Virus record (IMG/VR): IMGVR_UViG_3300044961_000030
Coordinates: 1 to 24,241 of that record
DNA: 24,241 nt
Origin: a virus
Strand: one strand, 5' to 3'
Part shown: piece by piece, positions 5,315 to 24,241 of the stretch
How the letters are laid out: each line of letters opens with the position of its first letter
Position numbering within the stretch: position 1 is the first letter of the stretch
The notes under the pieces: model-generated
The model's input: only the letters and a program-made list of their open reading frames with translations
The model's database searches: none
Told to the model about the DNA's origin: nothing
Made by a program: the position numbers and the translations under genes

Positions 5315-5723
5315 CTTTCAGCTCCCAGTAAGAATGTGGATAGTCGATCCAGGGCTTGGAGAAAGGTACTTCTTGCACTTTCTTAAACGCCTGGTCGGCG
5401 TGTATCATGTTGCCATGGTCAGTGATGATCCCGACATGAGCGAGATCCTGGCGGATAAAGACGACTATGTTGCCATACTCGCGAGACATAGACCTGATTG
5501 CGATACGCTGCAGGTGCTTCAGCATCTTCGCCCGGTTCGGCGCTTGAGAGTACGCAGGAACAACATAGTCCTCGGCGTATAGCCCGACTCGCTTGCCTGA
5601 GTAGAGAATGAGCCCAACGCAATCGACTCCGAGCTTGCCTCTTCCCATGTGAACCCAGGGAACGCCGATCAGTTCACGCGCTGCGGCGACAAACTCATCC
5701 CTTCGGGGTCTTGACCATTGCAT
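5307..5723 (-). CDS. NlpC/P60 family tail-tip peptidase
   Basis: This 138-residue protein matches NlpC/P60 cysteine peptidases, which cleave peptidoglycan stem peptides. The catalytic Cys is residue 35 in GVDCVGLI, the catalytic His is residue 96 in LAHVGIIT, and His108 (MIHA) is the likely third member of the triad. The N-terminal ARELIGVPWVHMGR motif is typical of the phage/GTA branch. In GTAs the equivalent sits between the DUF2163 protein and the tip protein and is thought to open the cell wall locally during DNA entry. The gene overlaps the DUF2163 gene by 29 bp and the hub gene by 8 bp, so it is part of the same translational chain. All catalytic residues are present, so it is probably active. 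Confidence 0.93.
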   Translation of the reverse strand: MQWSRPRRDEFVAAARELIGVPWVHMGRGKLGVDCVGLILYSGKRVGLYAEDYVVPAYSQAPNRAKMLKHLQRIAIRSMSREYGNIVVFIRQDLAHVGIITDHGNMIHADQAFKKVQEVPFSKPWIDYPHSYWELKDG

Positions 5724-11715: not shown

Positions 11716-12366
11716 CTACAGCCTCCTGACCTTGAACCTGTCGAGGATCGACAAGGCAGACACAGGCACCCTGGCTAAGATCGTGCCAACTTCGAACAGC
11801 TCGCGGTTCTCGTACCAGTGCGCCGCAATCTGCATCAGAGCGATCTTGAGCATGGGCGGGATTGAGCCATTAGCGTAACCCGCTGTAAAGTCGACAGTGA
11901 CGCAGTTGTCTTTTCTCAAGTCGCTTGGCCAGAACCTACCTTGCTTCAAGATCAGCTTGCCCGGCTCGCTGTAAATGTCAGCATAATAGTTCTCTGACGC
12001 ATAAGCAGACGTCTCTCCCGCCGAGTTTGTCGTCGTCACGGACTCAATGCTCACGAGCGGAGGCAGAGGAAGCTCAAGCTCACGCAACATATCTGTGGAC
12101 ACGATTGCACCTTCGCGCACGCCATCCCACCACTCGAACAGTTCGGGGCTAAAGCGGGCCTTGTTCACCGTGTCGAAGATAGCGCGGAAGGTACGGAGTG
12201 GGATGACTGTGCCCGTATGGCGCTCAGCGAAATCTCGCACACCCGGAATGATCGTGCTCTCGATGAGCGTGTCATCCGCTGTTGTGTCGAGCCTGAGGTG
12301 CGCCTTGACTCCAGCCAGAGTGATCGGCTCGAATGAAGGATTGGTTAGCTGAGCGTACTTCGCCAT
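11716..12366 (-). CDS. Head-tail connector protein (GTA gp6 / phiE125 gp8 type)
   Basis: This 216-residue protein has the typical start of this connector family: FEPITLAGVKAHLRLDTTADDTLIESTI, then VRDFAERHTGTVIP. The C-terminal part has the NCVTVDFTAGYANGSIPPMLKIALMQIAAHWYENRE segment also typical of it. It forms the adaptor ring under the portal. The ribosome-binding site AGGA lies 6 nt before the ATG. It follows the capsid and small unknown gene with a gap of 60 bp that holds only a weak 5-bp hairpin. Confidence 0.92.
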   Translation of the reverse strand: MAKYAQLTNPSFEPITLAGVKAHLRLDTTADDTLIESTIIPGVRDFAERHTGTVIPLRTFRAIFDTVNKARFSPELFEWWDGVREGAIVSTDMLRELELPLPPLVSIESVTTTNSAGETSAYASENYYADIYSEPGKLILKQGRFWPSDLRKDNCVTVDFTAGYANGSIPPMLKIALMQIAAHWYENRELFEVGTILARVPVSALSILDRFKVRRL

Positions 12367-15347: not shown

Positions 15348-16127
15348 TTAGCGTATGATCTTGCCAGTGCTCGTCCTTGGCCAGTACAGCGCGACGCATC
15401 TGCAGTTGATGACTTGCCCAGCGCTGCCTGACGGATCGCCAGGAAACATCAGCTTCTCGCCGCCTACGTCGAATGGCTCGTCTATCTCACGGAGCTGACC
15501 ATCAGCTTGCGCGTGATCGGGCCTAGTGCGGGCGTCCTCTGTAGCCCCCCACTCCTTGACAAGATCGACGCCGCTCTCGGCCGCAGCTTCTTGTTGCCCC
15601 TTGTTCGCCGCGGTATGAGCCACAGTCCTGGCGATGCGTTGCGCAATGTGCAAGGCCAGCCCCTTCTTCATCGCTTGGGCTACGGCCCTGACGCCTTCAC
15701 GCTCTCCCTTGCCTTGCGCTATCCACCGAGCGATAGCCTGGCTCACGCGCTTCCTGAGGCTGTCTGCAACATACTTGCTCTGCTTTGCCGCTTGCGAGAG
15801 CACCCAGCTCAAGATGCGTCGCTTGAACCTAGCGAACACGCTCTTCTCTTCTAGCTTGAGATGCAGAAGCTTGGCGTTGTCGATCACCTCGAACGCAAAG
15901 ACGGCAGCGATAGTCTCGATCTGATGACGCAGCAACACTCGTAGCCTCTGCTCGAAATCGTCAATGGCGGCCTCCCAGTCAGCCTCCTCGTCGAGCCTAT
16001 CGGCTAGGCGGCGGAGGAGTGCGAGGCTTCCTCTTGAGAGGCTTTGCTCCCACCTCACTAGAAGCCGGTTCAGCGTCAGCATCTTGCGTTTGCGATGCCG
16101 CGTCCTCAGGTTCAATGGGCTCGCCAT
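15348..16127 (-). CDS. Minor head protein, Mu F-like
   Basis: The C-terminal part has the phage Mu gpF-like signature: VKEWGATEDARTRPDHAQAD, then FDVGGEKLMFPGDPSG and the INCRCV ending. The N-terminal two thirds are highly basic and helical. Such proteins are minor head components involved in head morphogenesis, some of them injected. I choose the ATG at 16127 (MASPLNLR, about 259 residues) because GGGAG lies 9 nt upstream. An in-frame TTG at 16163 would add 12 residues, and an ATG at 16082 has no ribosome-binding site. With this start it overlaps the portal gene by 131 bp in a different frame. Confidence 0.87.
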   Translation of the reverse strand: MASPLNLRTRHRKRKMLTLNRLLVRWEQSLSRGSLALLRRLADRLDEEADWEAAIDDFEQRLRVLLRHQIETIAAVFAFEVIDNAKLLHLKLEEKSVFARFKRRILSWVLSQAAKQSKYVADSLRKRVSQAIARWIAQGKGEREGVRAVAQAMKKGLALHIAQRIARTVAHTAANKGQQEAAAESGVDLVKEWGATEDARTRPDHAQADGQLREIDEPFDVGGEKLMFPGDPSGSAGQVINCRCVALYWPRTSTGKIIR

Positions 16128-19524: not shown

Positions 19525-19827
19525 ATGATAACCTTGAAGCATTTCGCGCAGCATTGGGAGGTCAGCCCGGCGAAGCTGCGGCGGCTGTTCCGGAAGGAGT
19601 ACCCAGGCAAGGAGAAGGGGCGATGGGAGTTCGAGCACGACAGCGAGACACTGATTGGGGTAGCCGATCTCTTGAAGCGCAAGCTCGGCGAACCTACCGG
19701 CAACTGTCTCGCGCTCTCCCAGGCCATGTCTTCAGCAGCATCCAGCCAAGGCAAGACCCTAGCAACATCGAGCTTCACGAGCTCCAAGAGTTCCAGAACC
19801 CGCGCCAAGCGCGCATCGCGAGGATAG
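19525..19827 (+). CDS. Small HTH-type DNA-binding protein (early gene A)
   Basis: This 100-residue protein starts MITLKHFAQHWEVSPAKLRR and its residues 3-53 form a small helix-turn-helix-like module (FAQHWEVSPAKLRRLFRKEY, then GRWEFEHD). The tail from about 57 on is Ser/Thr/Arg-rich and probably disordered. Start choice: ATG at 19525 with AGGAGG 10 nt upstream; a longer in-frame start at 19453 would lie upstream of the promoter's -10. The module resembles the C-termini of the next two proteins. It may act as a regulator or nucleoid-type DNA binder. I do not recognise a named family. Confidence 0.75.
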   Translation: MITLKHFAQHWEVSPAKLRRLFRKEYPGKEKGRWEFEHDSETLIGVADLLKRKLGEPTGNCLALSQAMSSAASSQGKTLATSSFTSSKSSRTRAKRASRG

Positions 19828-19832
19828 AGTAC

Positions 19833-20441
19833 ATGGCGAAAGAACACGAACCGACTCTCGGCCTTCCTGCCCCGTTCCCGTCGTCCCCGAGGCGTCCTCC
19901 TAAGTACGTCGTGCGGTTCGAGAACGAACAGGTTGGGCTCTTCTATGTCACGAGCTTCTGCGAGCTGTACGCCGCAAAGTACCCTACGGCGTTAGTGCTC
20001 GGCGAGCGCCAATGGGCCTGGAAGGATGAGAAGACCATCCAGTGTGCTGACGGCATGGTCATCCACAGTGACGACCTGGAAGAGATCATCGAGCATGAGC
20101 TCACGCCAAAGGAAGAGCAGTGGGTCCCGCCACCGCCATACTACGGCCAGTGGCACGACCTCGCTGCAGGCCATAGTGTCCGAGCCCAGGAACGCTCACA
20201 GACGCCCAAAGGCAGCGGAAGCGCTGAACAGCGGAAGAAGACCGATCCTAAGCGCACAGCGTCGAAAGAAGGCCTCGTCACTATCTCCGAGATCGCCGAA
20301 CAGCTCGGCAGAGACCCGAAGCAGTGCCGCATCGCGCTCAGGAAGAGCGGTACGCCTAAGCCTGGAGCCAGCTGGGCATGGCCACAGGATGAAGCCGACA
20401 GCATCAAGGCAATGATCCTCGAGCGCCTCAGGAAATCCTAG
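19833..20441 (+). CDS. Unknown protein with C-terminal HTH-like module (early gene B)
   Basis: This 202-residue protein starts 5 bp after gene A, with AGGA 8 nt before the ATG at 19833, so the two form an operon. Residues 23-100 form a globular domain (KYVVRFENEQVGLFYVTSF, GERQWAWKDEKTI) that I do not recognise; a Pro-rich PPPPYY segment follows, then a basic linker (110-146). Residues 147-200 (GLVTISEIAEQLGRDPKQCR, PGASWAWPQDEADSIKAMI) match the HTH-like module of gene A. The longer in-frame start at 19446 was rejected because that stretch is the shifted frame of gene A. DNA binding is inferred. Confidence 0.75.
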   Translation: MAKEHEPTLGLPAPFPSSPRRPPKYVVRFENEQVGLFYVTSFCELYAAKYPTALVLGERQWAWKDEKTIQCADGMVIHSDDLEEIIEHELTPKEEQWVPPPPYYGQWHDLAAGHSVRAQERSQTPKGSGSAEQRKKTDPKRTASKEGLVTISEIAEQLGRDPKQCRIALRKSGTPKPGASWAWPQDEADSIKAMILERLRKS

Positions 20442-20451
20442 CGATCTCGCA

Positions 20452-20501
20452 CAGGCGCTATTGAGATCCGATGGCGCCTGCACCATATTCCTGTGCAGGC
20501 G
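20452..20501 (+). promoter_or_regulatory. Overlapping hairpins with promoter between genes B and C
   Basis: TTGAGA (20461-20466), 17 nt, CATATT (20484-20489) forms a fair promoter for the gene at 20532. Two hairpins overlap it: CAGGCGC (20452-20458) pairs with GCGCCTG (20474-20480), with the -35 in the loop; CGCCTGCAC (20475-20483) pairs perfectly with GTGCAGGCG (20493-20501), with the -10 in the loop. They exclude each other. The pair may terminate gene A-B transcription while starting the next. Confidence 0.5.
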
Positions 20502-20531
20502 ATCATGCCTAACCAACCACAGGAGCCTGAT

Positions 20532-21053
20532 ATGAACACCATCAACCTCGTCACCCTGAACAGCCTCCGCGCCCAGAACGGCAAAGCGCCGCTCAAGAGC
20601 TGGAAGGAGTCCAAGTCGAAGCTGGAAGCGGCGATCCTCTCGGAGAAGAACGTGATCGCTGCCAAGGCTGTCGATCACGCGAAGATGGAGGAGCAGAGGG
20701 TAGCGCGTCTCCGCCAGGAGCAGCTCGAGGCGTCAGCGAAGGCAGCGCGCGAGAAGGCAGAGGCCGACGCCAAGGCTCTCAAGGAAGCCGAGGCGAAGCT
20801 GCCGAAGCCCCAGCCTCGGAAAGTGTCGAAGCCTGTCAGCCTCCAAGAGCTGCAGAAAGCGCTGGCGAAGACGGACAAGCAGCCCCGGAAGCTGCCTGCG
20901 AAGCCAGCAGCGAAGGCCAGTTCCGAAGCAAGCATTGCTGCAGAACGCCTCGGGATCACAGCGAAAGCAGTGCGCGCGAAGCTGCGCAAGCTCGGTCACT
21001 CTGCAGGACACGGCCTGAGCGCCGACCAGATCGTGAAGGCTCTCAGAGCCTGA
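20532..21053 (+). CDS. Coiled-coil protein with C-terminal HTH-like module (early gene C)
   Basis: This 173-residue protein starts at the ATG at 20532 (MNTINLVTLNSLRAQNGKAP), with AGGAG 6 nt upstream. A 13-residue longer start exists but lies in the promoter-leader. Residues 18-36 hold KAPLKSWKESKSKLEAAI, residues 48-92 form a charged Ala/Lys/Glu helix that is probably a coiled coil, 93-130 is a Pro/Lys-rich linker, and 131-172 (SEASIAAERLGITAKAVRAK, GHGLSADQIVKALRA) matches the HTH-like module of genes A and B. It is very basic at the C-terminus. It could act as a DNA-organising or regulatory protein. A perfect terminator follows the stop. Confidence 0.78.
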   Translation: MNTINLVTLNSLRAQNGKAPLKSWKESKSKLEAAILSEKNVIAAKAVDHAKMEEQRVARLRQEQLEASAKAAREKAEADAKALKEAEAKLPKPQPRKVSKPVSLQELQKALAKTDKQPRKLPAKPAAKASSEASIAAERLGITAKAVRAKLRKLGHSAGHGLSADQIVKALRA

Positions 21054-21070
21054 GAAACTTCAATGTTTTC

Positions 21071-21100
21071 AGGCGTTGCAGCGATGCAACGCCTTTCTTT
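21071..21100 (+). terminator. Rho-independent terminator after early gene C
   Basis: AGGCGTTGCA (21071-21080) and TGCAACGCCT (21085-21094) form a perfect 10-bp stem around a GCGA loop (GNRA type). The stem runs straight into the T-rich tract TTTCTTT (21094-21100). Confidence 0.9.
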
Positions 21101-21162
21101 CAGAGTCGACGAGGAGGTCTTCGCGCGCGCGTACACAGTCATCTCCTCGTCTCCTTTCTCCT

Positions 21163-21190
21163 TTGTTATGGGAATAAAACACAATATATA
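21163..21190 (+). promoter_or_regulatory. Rightward promoter-like sequence in inverted repeat
   Basis: TTGTTA (21163-21168), 16 nt, TATATA (21185-21190) could drive the gcrA-like gene through a leader of about 210 nt. The -35 comes from the left arm of the inverted repeat. Confidence 0.4.
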
Positions 21191-21206
21191 GGAATAAAAC
21201 ACAATA
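21171..21206 (+). repeat. AT-rich direct repeat, 20-bp period
   Basis: GGAATAAAACACAATA occurs at 21171-21186 and again at 21191-21206, separated by TATA. The repeat lies inside the spacer of the large inverted repeat, which makes it the most AT-rich spot in the neighbourhood. It looks iteron-like. Confidence 0.85.
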
Positions 21207-21230
21207 AAGGAGGAGGAGATAAACTTCGCT

Positions 21231-21260
21231 TTTATATGCGCGCGCGAGCAACCATAACAA
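21231..21260 (-). promoter_or_regulatory. Leftward promoter-like sequence in inverted repeat
   Basis: The minus strand reads TTGTTA (21260-21255), 18 nt of CG-rich spacer, TATAAA (21236-21231). It uses the same TTGTTATGG block from the right arm and would fire toward gene C, giving a transcript antisense to its end. No gene is seen in its path. Confidence 0.4.
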
Positions 21261-21404
21261 GGAGACAAGGAGACGAGGAGACGAGGAGATTATCGCGCGC
21301 GCGCGCGAAGATCTCCTTTGTTCCTGTGGTGTAGAACATCTCAGAGCTGAAGCGTTGCAGCGGCGGCGCTGATGCGTGAACATGCGAGCGACCAGGAGGA
21401 CACG

Positions 21405-21902
21405 ATGACCTTAAATCACGCTCTGAAGTGGACGCAAGACGAAGACGTCATGCTGAAGCGCCTCGTCATTGATGAGCGCAAGAGCTTCGGTGTTGCAGCT
21501 GCTGAACTGAAGCGCAAGTTTCCAGAATCGGCTGTGACGTTCACCCGAAACGCTTGCATCTCGCGTGCCCACCGGCTTCAGCTTGGCGGGCGCACGAAGC
21601 AGGAAGACAAGTGGTGCAATCAGCCACCAGGCGCGAGGTCGCCTGACAAGCGCAAGAACCTCCCGTCGCCGCCAAGCCTGCCGCTGATACGGCTGAGCAG
21701 GCCTGCGCCATCGCTCATCAGTCACGATCCTAGCGAGTATGAGCCAATGCTCAACGCCCGTAGAGCCGAGCTAGTAGACGGCACTTGTCAGTTCATCGGG
21801 CAGACGTGGAGAGAGAAGTGTGCCCGCCCGTGCGACGGCCAGACGAACTACTGCGAGTATCATCGGAGCCTGTGCTATCAGCCAGACCCCCGGCGCCGTT
21901 AG
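21405..21902 (+). CDS. GcrA-family cell-cycle regulator homologue
   Basis: This 165-residue protein matches GcrA, the alphaproteobacterial transcription factor that works with sigma-70 RNA polymerase and GANTC adenine methylation by CcrM. Residues 8-63 form the DNA-binding domain, with the signature TRNACISRAHRLQLGGR (47-63). The C-terminal domain has the family's Cys/His pattern: CQFIGQTWREKC (128-139), Cys143, YCEYH (149-153) and the CYQP ending. Between them is a Pro-rich linker. The start is the ATG at 21405 with AGGAGG 5 nt upstream; an in-frame ATG 11 codons earlier has no such site. It probably alters host or phage transcription. Confidence 0.88.
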   Translation: MTLNHALKWTQDEDVMLKRLVIDERKSFGVAAAELKRKFPESAVTFTRNACISRAHRLQLGGRTKQEDKWCNQPPGARSPDKRKNLPSPPSLPLIRLSRPAPSLISHDPSEYEPMLNARRAELVDGTCQFIGQTWREKCARPCDGQTNYCEYHRSLCYQPDPRRR

Positions 21903-21962
21903 GCGGCCATGCTGTCCTGTGGCGTATTATCTAGCTAGATTCTATTCTCTAGTCGGATCATG

Positions 21963-22015
21963 TTGAGTCCGCGGCAATACCGCCCTATGTAGAGCATGAG
22001 CGCAATTCGCGCTCA
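21963..22015 (+). promoter_or_regulatory. Promoter and 5' hairpin for the DUF932 gene
   Basis: TTGAGT (21963-21968), 17 nt, TATGTA (21986-21991). Six nt later the predicted mRNA 5' end folds as TGAGCGC (21997-22003), loop AATTC, GCGCTCA (22009-22015), then ACCACAGGAG. A GAGTC (GANTC) site overlaps the -35 at 21965-21969 and a GATTC lies at 21938-21942. Confidence 0.6.
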
Positions 22016-22034: not shown

Positions 22035-22973
22035 ATGACTGATGCAGTTGAAACGATGGCCTACACCAACGAAGTGCCTTGGCACGGCTTGGGCGTGAGG
22101 CTCGAAAAAGCGGCTACGCCTGCCGCCATGCTGAAGCACGCTGGCCTCGACTGGCGTGTCGACCGGGTCCCGCTGTACGCAGGTGAGAGCAGAAAGCCCA
22201 TCGAGGGCTTCGCAGCCCTTCAGCGTTCCAGCGATGGCAAGACCTTGGACGTTGTAGGCTCGCGCTACAAGCCAGTCCAGAACGAGGACGTGTTCGCCTT
22301 CTTCAAGGAGTTCACCGAGGCTGGCGAGGCGACGATGGAGACGGCCGGCTCCTTGAATGGCGGACGCTACGTCTGGGCGCTCGCCAACCTTAGCGCCAGC
22401 TTCTCGCTGGCCGGCGGCGACCGTGTCAACGGCTACCTCCTTGTGGCCAGCCCCCACATCCAAGGCAAGACTTTAGTCGTCAAGTTCACCACAATCCGTG
22501 TCGTCTGCCAGAACACGCTTAGCCTGGCGCTGAGGTCGGGCGGCAGCTCATGGCGGATGAGCCATACCCGTAGCTTCGACAGCGTGACCCAGGCGGAAGC
22601 CAAGGAAGCGCTCGGGATCGCACGCGATCAGATGGGCGAGTTCGAGGCGACGGCCAGGAAGCTGAAGAAGATGAAGCTGGACAGAAAGAAGATCGTCGAG
22701 GTTCTGGCGATGACGTTCCAGCCTGGCTTCGAGGTCAAGGAGCTGCTCAAGGACAGCAGCCTCCTCAGCAGGAAGATGGAGGTGCTGCTCGACGTGAACG
22801 AGAAGGCTCCCGGCGCCGATCCTGGCACAGGCTGGGGGCTGCTGAACGCTGTCACCTACTACGCTGACCATGTGGCGAGCAGGACGGCTGACAAGCGTCT
22901 GACCAACGCCTGGCTGGGCAAGACAGCGAACCAGAAGGAAGCAGTCCTCGAGTCGCTGCTCGAGCTGGCCTAA
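22035..22973 (+). CDS. DUF932 / phage-plasmid-like protein (TIGR03299 type)
   Basis: This 312-residue protein matches the DUF932 family, found on phages and plasmids. It has the early ETMAYTNEVPWHGLG motif, LDVVGSRYKPVQNEDVFAFF, and the central VVKFTTIRVVCQNTLSLAL motif that defines the family. The C-terminal half is helical and charged, ending in a KLTNAWLGK-like segment (RLTNAWLGKTANQKEAVLES). Its biochemical role is not established. I choose the ATG at 22035 because AGGAG is 8 nt upstream; the frame extends 13 codons further but into the 5' hairpin. It is a single-gene unit with its own promoter and a terminator hairpin right after. Confidence 0.92.
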   Translation: MTDAVETMAYTNEVPWHGLGVRLEKAATPAAMLKHAGLDWRVDRVPLYAGESRKPIEGFAALQRSSDGKTLDVVGSRYKPVQNEDVFAFFKEFTEAGEATMETAGSLNGGRYVWALANLSASFSLAGGDRVNGYLLVASPHIQGKTLVVKFTTIRVVCQNTLSLALRSGGSSWRMSHTRSFDSVTQAEAKEALGIARDQMGEFEATARKLKKMKLDRKKIVEVLAMTFQPGFEVKELLKDSSLLSRKMEVLLDVNEKAPGADPGTGWGLLNAVTYYADHVASRTADKRLTNAWLGKTANQKEAVLESLLELA

Positions 22974-22987
22974 TCCTGCAATCGCAT

Positions 22988-23026
22988 GGGGTTCGCCTTG
23001 CTAATAGGCGGGCCCCGTGTTATGTT
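22988..23026 (+). promoter_or_regulatory. Fused terminator-promoter between DUF932 and orphan gene
   Basis: GGGGTTCGCC (22988-22997) pairs with GGCGGGCCCC (23007-23016), including two G-T wobbles, and is followed by a T-rich tail. TTGCTA (22998-23003), 17 nt, TATGTT (23021-23026) is a good promoter whose -35 begins exactly in the hairpin loop and whose -10 lies in the tail. Confidence 0.6.
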
Positions 23027-23505: not shown

Positions 23506-23527
23506 GCGCCTAGCAGCGCGACAGCTT

Positions 23528-23558
23528 AGCGCCGCCCGAAAAGGCGGCGCTATTCTTT
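23528..23558 (+). terminator. Rho-independent terminator after the orphan gene
   Basis: AGCGCCGCC (23528-23536) and GGCGGCGCT (23543-23551) form a perfect 9-bp GC-rich stem around CGAAAA, followed by the T-rich ATTCTTT. Confidence 0.85.
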
Positions 23559-23841: not shown

Positions 23842-24241
23842 CGCGGAGGCTGGCGTGACCCAGAACAGGATCAGAGAGCTCATCGCTAAGCTGCTGCGCC
23901 TCGCGCGCGATGCAGGTGCAACATCGGCTGAAGCAGAGTCAGCGCTGAGCAAGGCGCGAGCCATGATGCTCGAGCACGGGCTCGCCGAAGCCGATACAGC
24001 CGAAGCTGAGGTGAGGATCGTCGCGAGCGGCCTGTACGACCAGGACAGCAAGTGGAAGTTCATAGCCGCCTATGCTTGTGCAAAGCTCATGGGTGTCGTC
24101 AATCTGACGCGCGGTGAGCAGTGTTACTTCGTCGGGCGGCAGGACCTGATCGACGCTGCGGGCCTCGCATACGCCTATGTCTGCGATCAGATCGAAGCGA
24201 AGTACAAGCTGGCGCTGACTACGCTAGGACAGCACGGGACG
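23834..24241 (+). CDS. DUF2786-type protein, C-terminus cut by window edge
   Basis: The frame is open from the ATG at 23834 to the right edge (136 residues) with no stop. The N-terminus RIRELIAKLLRLARDAGATS, then EAESALSKARAMMLEHGL, fits the DUF2786 domain, a helical domain found in phage and mobile-element proteins, of unknown function. Residues from about 60 on (SGLYDQDSKWKFIAAYACAK, QCYFVGRQDLIDAAGLAYAY) look like the domain that usually follows it. GGGAG lies 7 nt before the ATG, and the gene overlaps the preceding stop by 8 bp. Confidence 0.85.
   Translation, partial: MSDAEAGVTQNRIRELIAKLLRLARDAGATSAEAESALSKARAMMLEHGLAEADTAEAEVRIVASGLYDQDSKWKFIAAYACAKLMGVVNLTRGEQCYFVGRQDLIDAAGLAYAYVCDQIEAKYKLALTTLGQHGT

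Follow-up and report, generated by a model that had tools for sequence, protein, structure and literature searches.

A noncoding inverted repeat with CG tracts and an AT-rich centre in an uncultured phage fragment: a candidate replication origin or initiation-control region

What is the role of a noncoding stretch of about 200 bases, built from a large inverted repeat, an AT-rich centre and CG tracts, that lies between two genes of a phage? The question is raised by an uncultured tailed phage fragment of 24.2 kb, an IMG/VR virus record that was analysed over its whole length (24241 bases; here called the window) and is classed as linear, which often means a fragment. Minus-strand genes for terminase, portal, protease, capsid and tail proteins extend up to ~19.4 kb, and plus-strand genes run from ~19.6 kb onward; the phage is probably a siphophage. 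The element is located between the terminator of the P0002 gene and a GcrA-like gene, whose most likely start is 21405, with AGGAGG at 21394-21399 just ahead. As the GcrA family is alphaproteobacterial (PMC3667746), the host is probably an alphaproteobacterium. No replication genes were recognised within the 24.2-kb fragment, and the minus-strand ORFs that cross the element gave no family match. The surrounding features are as follows.

19623-20441, plus strand: gene with a predicted C-terminal winged-helix-like domain, start codon uncertain; homologues in G001, G002, G003, G004 and G009
20532-21053, plus strand: P0002, predicted long helix and C-terminal helical domain; marks the syntenic group, family motif LNxLR..PLKxWKESKxKL
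21071-21094, plus strand: intrinsic terminator of the upstream gene P0002; left limit of the gap
21405-21902, plus strand: GcrA-like regulator gene to the right of the element (Pfam PF07750, 28.2 bits, cut-off 26.9)
22038-22973, plus strand: DUF932 gene (phrog_1221), syntenic in G002

Terminator-like hairpins at 22984-23020 and 23527-23552 close individual plus-strand early genes of the window. Within the gap, the element is made up of the following parts.

21112-21171, plus strand: left arm of the large imperfect inverted repeat (blastn self match of 79%; repeat search)
21252-21317, minus strand: right arm of the inverted repeat, with expanded 8-bp units (self match, repeat search, shuffles)
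21122-21137, no strand: Z-DNA-prone CG tract 1 (CGCGCGCGCGTACACA), rank 3 of 22 in the record
21237-21246, no strand: Z-DNA-prone CG tract 2, rank 6 of 22 in the record
21294-21307, no strand: Z-DNA-prone CG tract 3, (CG)7, strongest in the record
21173-21222, no strand: AT-rich centre, the least stable 50 bp in 24 kb by nearest-neighbour stability scan; candidate unwinding element
21167-21206, plus strand: 20-bp direct repeat in two copies, TATRGGAATAAAACACAATA (95%)
21257-21288, plus strand: four tandem 8-bp units, ACAAGGAG/ACGAGGAG (repeat search)

The arms, which carry TTGTTATGG at 21163-21171 and CCATAACAA at 21252-21260, are 79% identical as reverse complements (self-blastn E 1.7e-8) and stand 80 bp apart. 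Their local alignment score of 31 was equalled by 1 of 1000 dinucleotide shuffles of the 351-bp intergenic gap (mean 13.0) and by 0 of 1000 shuffles of the 231-bp core (mean 11.9). The element is the top inverted repeat of the 24-kb window, and its strand folds far better than shuffles (z -7.9 as DNA, z -11.1 as RNA). An RNA-fold span scan did not discriminate it, and a search of Rfam produced no match at the gathering threshold. The self match and the shuffles thus bear out the initial annotation, which had described a large inverted repeat with arms of ~60 bp at 21113-21316; the position is right, although the arms reach ~1 base further out. Its three CG tracts were recovered within a base or two (21122-21131, 21238-21246 and 21294-21307), and the only other (CG)4 run in the window is at 23902. 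The expansion of an 8-bp unit in the right arm and the 20-bp-period direct repeat in the AT-rich centre are likewise present. The repeat had also been judged not to be a terminator, in agreement with its 80-nt loop, the lack of a T run and the real terminator at 21071-21094.

The element is a single copy and, in the searches made, had no match in public sequences and no DNA-level homologue; a DNA search of phage records with positions 20441-22000 found no match either. Searching IMG/VR for the exact inner-arm pattern, TTGTTATGG-N65..95-CCATAACAA, returned 25 matches, which were rejected as chance because none has extended arms. The search for relatives therefore turned to the neighbouring genes. 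The GcrA-like protein had no match in IMG/VR or phage records, and P0002 had none in phages, plasmids or one GTDB genome scan; P0002 also lacked a Pfam or PHROG match, and a fold search with its model gave nothing useful. In IMG/VR, P0002 relatives were found at 14 loci. Three of these records, G001 (57.4 kb), G002 (39.7 kb) and G003 (8.4 kb), encode a P0002 relative and an adjoining homologue of the 19623-20441 gene, followed by a noncoding gap, which is the gene order of the window. Further on, DUF932 and DUF2786-type genes follow in the same order in the window and G002. After the gap, G003 and G001 encode a small protein whose matches to sigma-70 region 4 and helix-turn-helix families are weak; the palindrome of G002 is preceded by a small divergent gene whose product is related to the C-terminus of P0002. 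This small G002 protein and the products of 19623-20441 and 20532-21053 have a related C-terminal domain of DNA-binding type, as if paralogous. A further record, G004, has the same neighbours and no such gap. The gaps of the window, G001, G002 and G003 are mutually unalignable, and since the sequence of the element is not conserved, comparison of the four rests on properties.

The four records were chosen by their genes and the presence of a gap. Each gap contains a significant imperfect palindrome, with 0-6 of 1000 shuffles as good. In all four, the 50-bp stretch of lowest stability anywhere in the record (records of 8-57 kb) lies inside the gap, a result that is weaker when taken alone because noncoding gaps are generally more AT-rich than genes. 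The strongest alternating purine-pyrimidine (Z-DNA-prone) tract of the whole record is also inside the gap in 4 of 4, in a ranking that was not fully blind, as the CG tracts of L116 (G003) had been seen by eye before the scan. Z-prone ranks 1, 3 and 6 are held by the gap in the window, and ranks 1, 2 and 3 in G002. It is the pairing of meltable DNA with CG tracts that is unusual. The distance between the most meltable site and the highest-ranked Z-prone site is 103, 60, 111 and 74 bp in the four records, compared with more than 1 kb in 15 of 16 comparison phage records; among 55 further loci, the two sites fall within 300 bp of each other in 4, including G002 and G005 themselves.

Two of these regions have additional features. 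In the G003 gap (L116:6022-6140), five iteron-like copies built on TGGCACGAATG and variants lie beside an AT palindrome. G005 (L140:11017-11210), an outside record with a related terminase, combines a palindrome with its strongest Z-prone tract and most meltable DNA; this element is 1.7 kb from the terminase and near a sharp composition switch of opposite sign.

Strand composition changes at these sites, sharply in G001 and G002, moderately in the window and weakly in G003. The biggest GC-skew switch of G001 (57 kb) is at 11828, inside its own palindrome (11761-11903), and that of G002 (40 kb) is at 5548, also inside its palindrome (5458-5623). In G001, the recognised genes on either side of the palindrome share one direction. 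In G002, an opposite-strand gene within the skewed block has the same top-strand skew, and the skew there therefore follows the strand and not the coding direction. The GC skew of the window has no switch at the element; its amino/keto skew (A+C against G+T) makes the largest drop of the record at 21207-21260 with windows of 1.2-1.5 kb, and with other window sizes the top is elsewhere, the element being within about the top 1.4%. G003 has a weak signal, a slope change only, and the outside analogue G005 has a switch near its element with the sign opposite. A GC-skew minimum at the element, which the initial annotation had named as support for an origin, agrees loosely with the window, whose broad minimum lies near 20.5 kb and is confounded by the gene-strand switch. 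As skew is confounded with gene modules, it supports a boundary at the element, and an origin only in part.

Our leading reading, which we hold at about even strength, is that the element is a replication origin or initiation-control region of the phage. Of the two options first proposed for it, an origin with an AT-rich core and flanking inverted repeats or a switch controlled by DNA shape or methylation, the origin is the better supported through the equivalent regions in relatives, although its skew minimum is loose. It is favoured because relatives have equivalent palindromic, meltable gaps with CG tracts and because composition switches there (GC skew in G001 and G002, amino/keto skew in the window). 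An origin would jointly explain the melting, the supercoil-sensitive tracts, the inverted arms, the neighbouring proteins of DNA-binding type and the composition boundary. The evidence favours an origin, or initiation control, for which DNA structure matters more than sequence. Candidate initiator sites are repeated in the window as direct and inverted repeats, and clear iteron-like repeats occur only in G003. The arm repeats would be bound by a DNA-binding protein of phage or host origin, P0002 and its winged-helix-like neighbour being candidates, while the CG tracts and the palindrome would take up or release negative supercoiling; the AT-rich centre at 21173-21222 would then melt, and a helicase could load there. 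We infer both the replication start at the element and the identity of the acting protein. In the alternative option of a switch, a role for DNA shape is compatible with the data and methylation is not favoured: the sole GANTC site is at 21103, outside the arms, and there are none in the gaps of the relatives, making a GANTC methylation switch unlikely.

The main rival, possible and less probable than an origin, is a transcription-control region, in which the arms would hold operators and the centre promoters, together controlling rightward expression of the GcrA-like and DUF932 early genes and possibly a transcript that runs left towards the late genes, with meltable and Z-prone DNA aiding promoter opening and supercoil buffering. 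Facing promoters had been proposed from an inward-pointing TTGTTA box in each arm, and these boxes were found where described, within a base or two, as parts of two weak pairs.

21163-21190, plus strand: weak sigma-70-like pair TTGTTA-16-TATATA (scan; set barely above chance, P 0.04)
21231-21260, minus strand: weak sigma-70-like pair TTGTTA-18-TATAAA (scan; set barely above chance, P 0.04)

Both point inward, as transcription control would have it, but such facing pairs are scarcely above chance (4 sites against 1.2 expected, P 0.04) and none is reported by a stricter promoter scan, which leaves the promoters weakly supported. The element follows an intrinsic terminator, the gene next downstream has regulator-type matches in the window and weak ones in G001 and G003, and a leftward transcript could also yield a keto-rich minus strand left of the element. 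However, 60-bp arms and CG tracts are needless for ordinary promoters, which also give no reason to expect every such gap to hold the top CG tract of its record. Transcription control could also overlap with an origin.

Two further explanations are both improbable, and to a similar degree. In the first, the element is a partition (centromere-like) site of a phage persisting as a plasmid, where the repeats would be binding sites for P0002 and the winged-helix-like neighbour, after the manner of partition systems with a single protein. The P0002 model shows a long helix with a small C-terminal domain, and the C-terminal domain of the 19623-20441 protein has weak fold matches to RacA-DNA (match probability 0.82), to the pSK1 Par-centromere complex (match probability 0.51) and to excisionases; however, the Foldseek E-values are ~1 or worse, no ParA or plasmid replication genes were seen, and the plasmid search with P0002 was empty. 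In the second, the element is a neutral repeat-rich intergenic relic with no function, either a mobile-element remnant or a slippage product. Its single copy and lack of a DNA-level homologue would suit a relic, and 8-bp repeats and CG runs can come from slippage, but the same combination of properties is kept in the same gap by three diverged relatives. Least probable is a packaging (cos/pac) or telomere-type DNA-processing site, as the small terminase gene ~1.7 kb from the element and the large palindromes upstream of terminase in several phages with related terminases are offset by G001, where 4.4 kb separate the element from the terminase and another palindrome (15580-15730) is closer, and by the 80-bp spacer between the arms, which a protelomerase site, as a continuous palindrome, would lack.

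If the element is an origin, it gives a group of uncultured phages, of undescribed replication, a start site that can be tested and genes that are candidate initiators. Its structural properties (melting, Z-propensity and palindrome) would be kept by position while its sequence is not, and such origins could be found by their properties where homology fails. A broader and rather doubtful proposal is a phage origin family defined by DNA mechanics instead of sequence. Across diverged phages, the sequence in one gene gap would turn over while its unwinding element, its Z-DNA-forming CG tracts and its large palindrome persisted, and the origin would be recognised by two dedicated coiled-coil/winged-helix proteins encoded next to it.

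Palindromes and repeats were also encountered at other positions. In another clade, a palindrome of ~165 bp occupies a conserved position ~290 bp upstream of DUF932 in ~15 phage contigs (L173:9718-9880 and its equivalents in L159, L161-L172 and L175), with outer ends CAAAATCCCTATAGA...TCTATAGGGATTTTG and an alignment too invariant for covariation. These palindromes were set apart, having no skew switch and no strong CG tract inside. The contigs with the next closest DUF932 (51-52%), L157 and L158, have tandem iteron-like repeats upstream of this gene (L157:780-900 and L158:1700-1900; ~12-bp ACATATTTAAT units and ~70-bp units), and their palindromes were rejected as reflecting very AT-rich DNA. 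Large palindromes also lie 0.5-1.5 kb upstream of related or syntenic terminases at L014:6464-6581, L028:5047-5233, L016:7422-7513 and L117:2610-2759.

Several known systems resemble the element in part. Iteron-type origins of plasmids and phages consist of direct repeats and an AT-rich unwinding region near a gene of DNA-binding type. The window has all three, and the iteron-like repeats of the G003 gap are clear; however, the direct repeats of the window number only two (20 bp) and four (8 bp), a DnaA-box cluster was not found, and no Rep protein was recognised in the fragment. Herpesvirus-type origins place an AT-rich centre between inverted binding sites. The AT-rich spacer between inverted arms is alike here, in layout only, as the viruses and proteins are unrelated. 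A search of the literature on phage origins with Z-DNA and palindromes found nothing directly comparable. At GcrA/CcrM promoters of Alphaproteobacteria, GcrA binding depends on N6-adenosine methylation at the GANTC sites of CcrM (PMC3667746); a GcrA-like gene adjoins the element, but the repeat is without GANTC. In the PLE satellite of Vibrio cholerae, the origin is the noncoding region between orf5 and orf7, with a RepA_N initiator, as demonstrated by deletion and binding assays, and its initiator-binding iterons contain inverted sub-repeats (PMC7145576). Like the PLE origin, the element is noncoding, lies between two genes and combines repeats of several types; the PLE origin, however, is served by a RepA_N initiator, whereas the element of the window is distinguished by its CG tracts and 60-bp inverted repeat.
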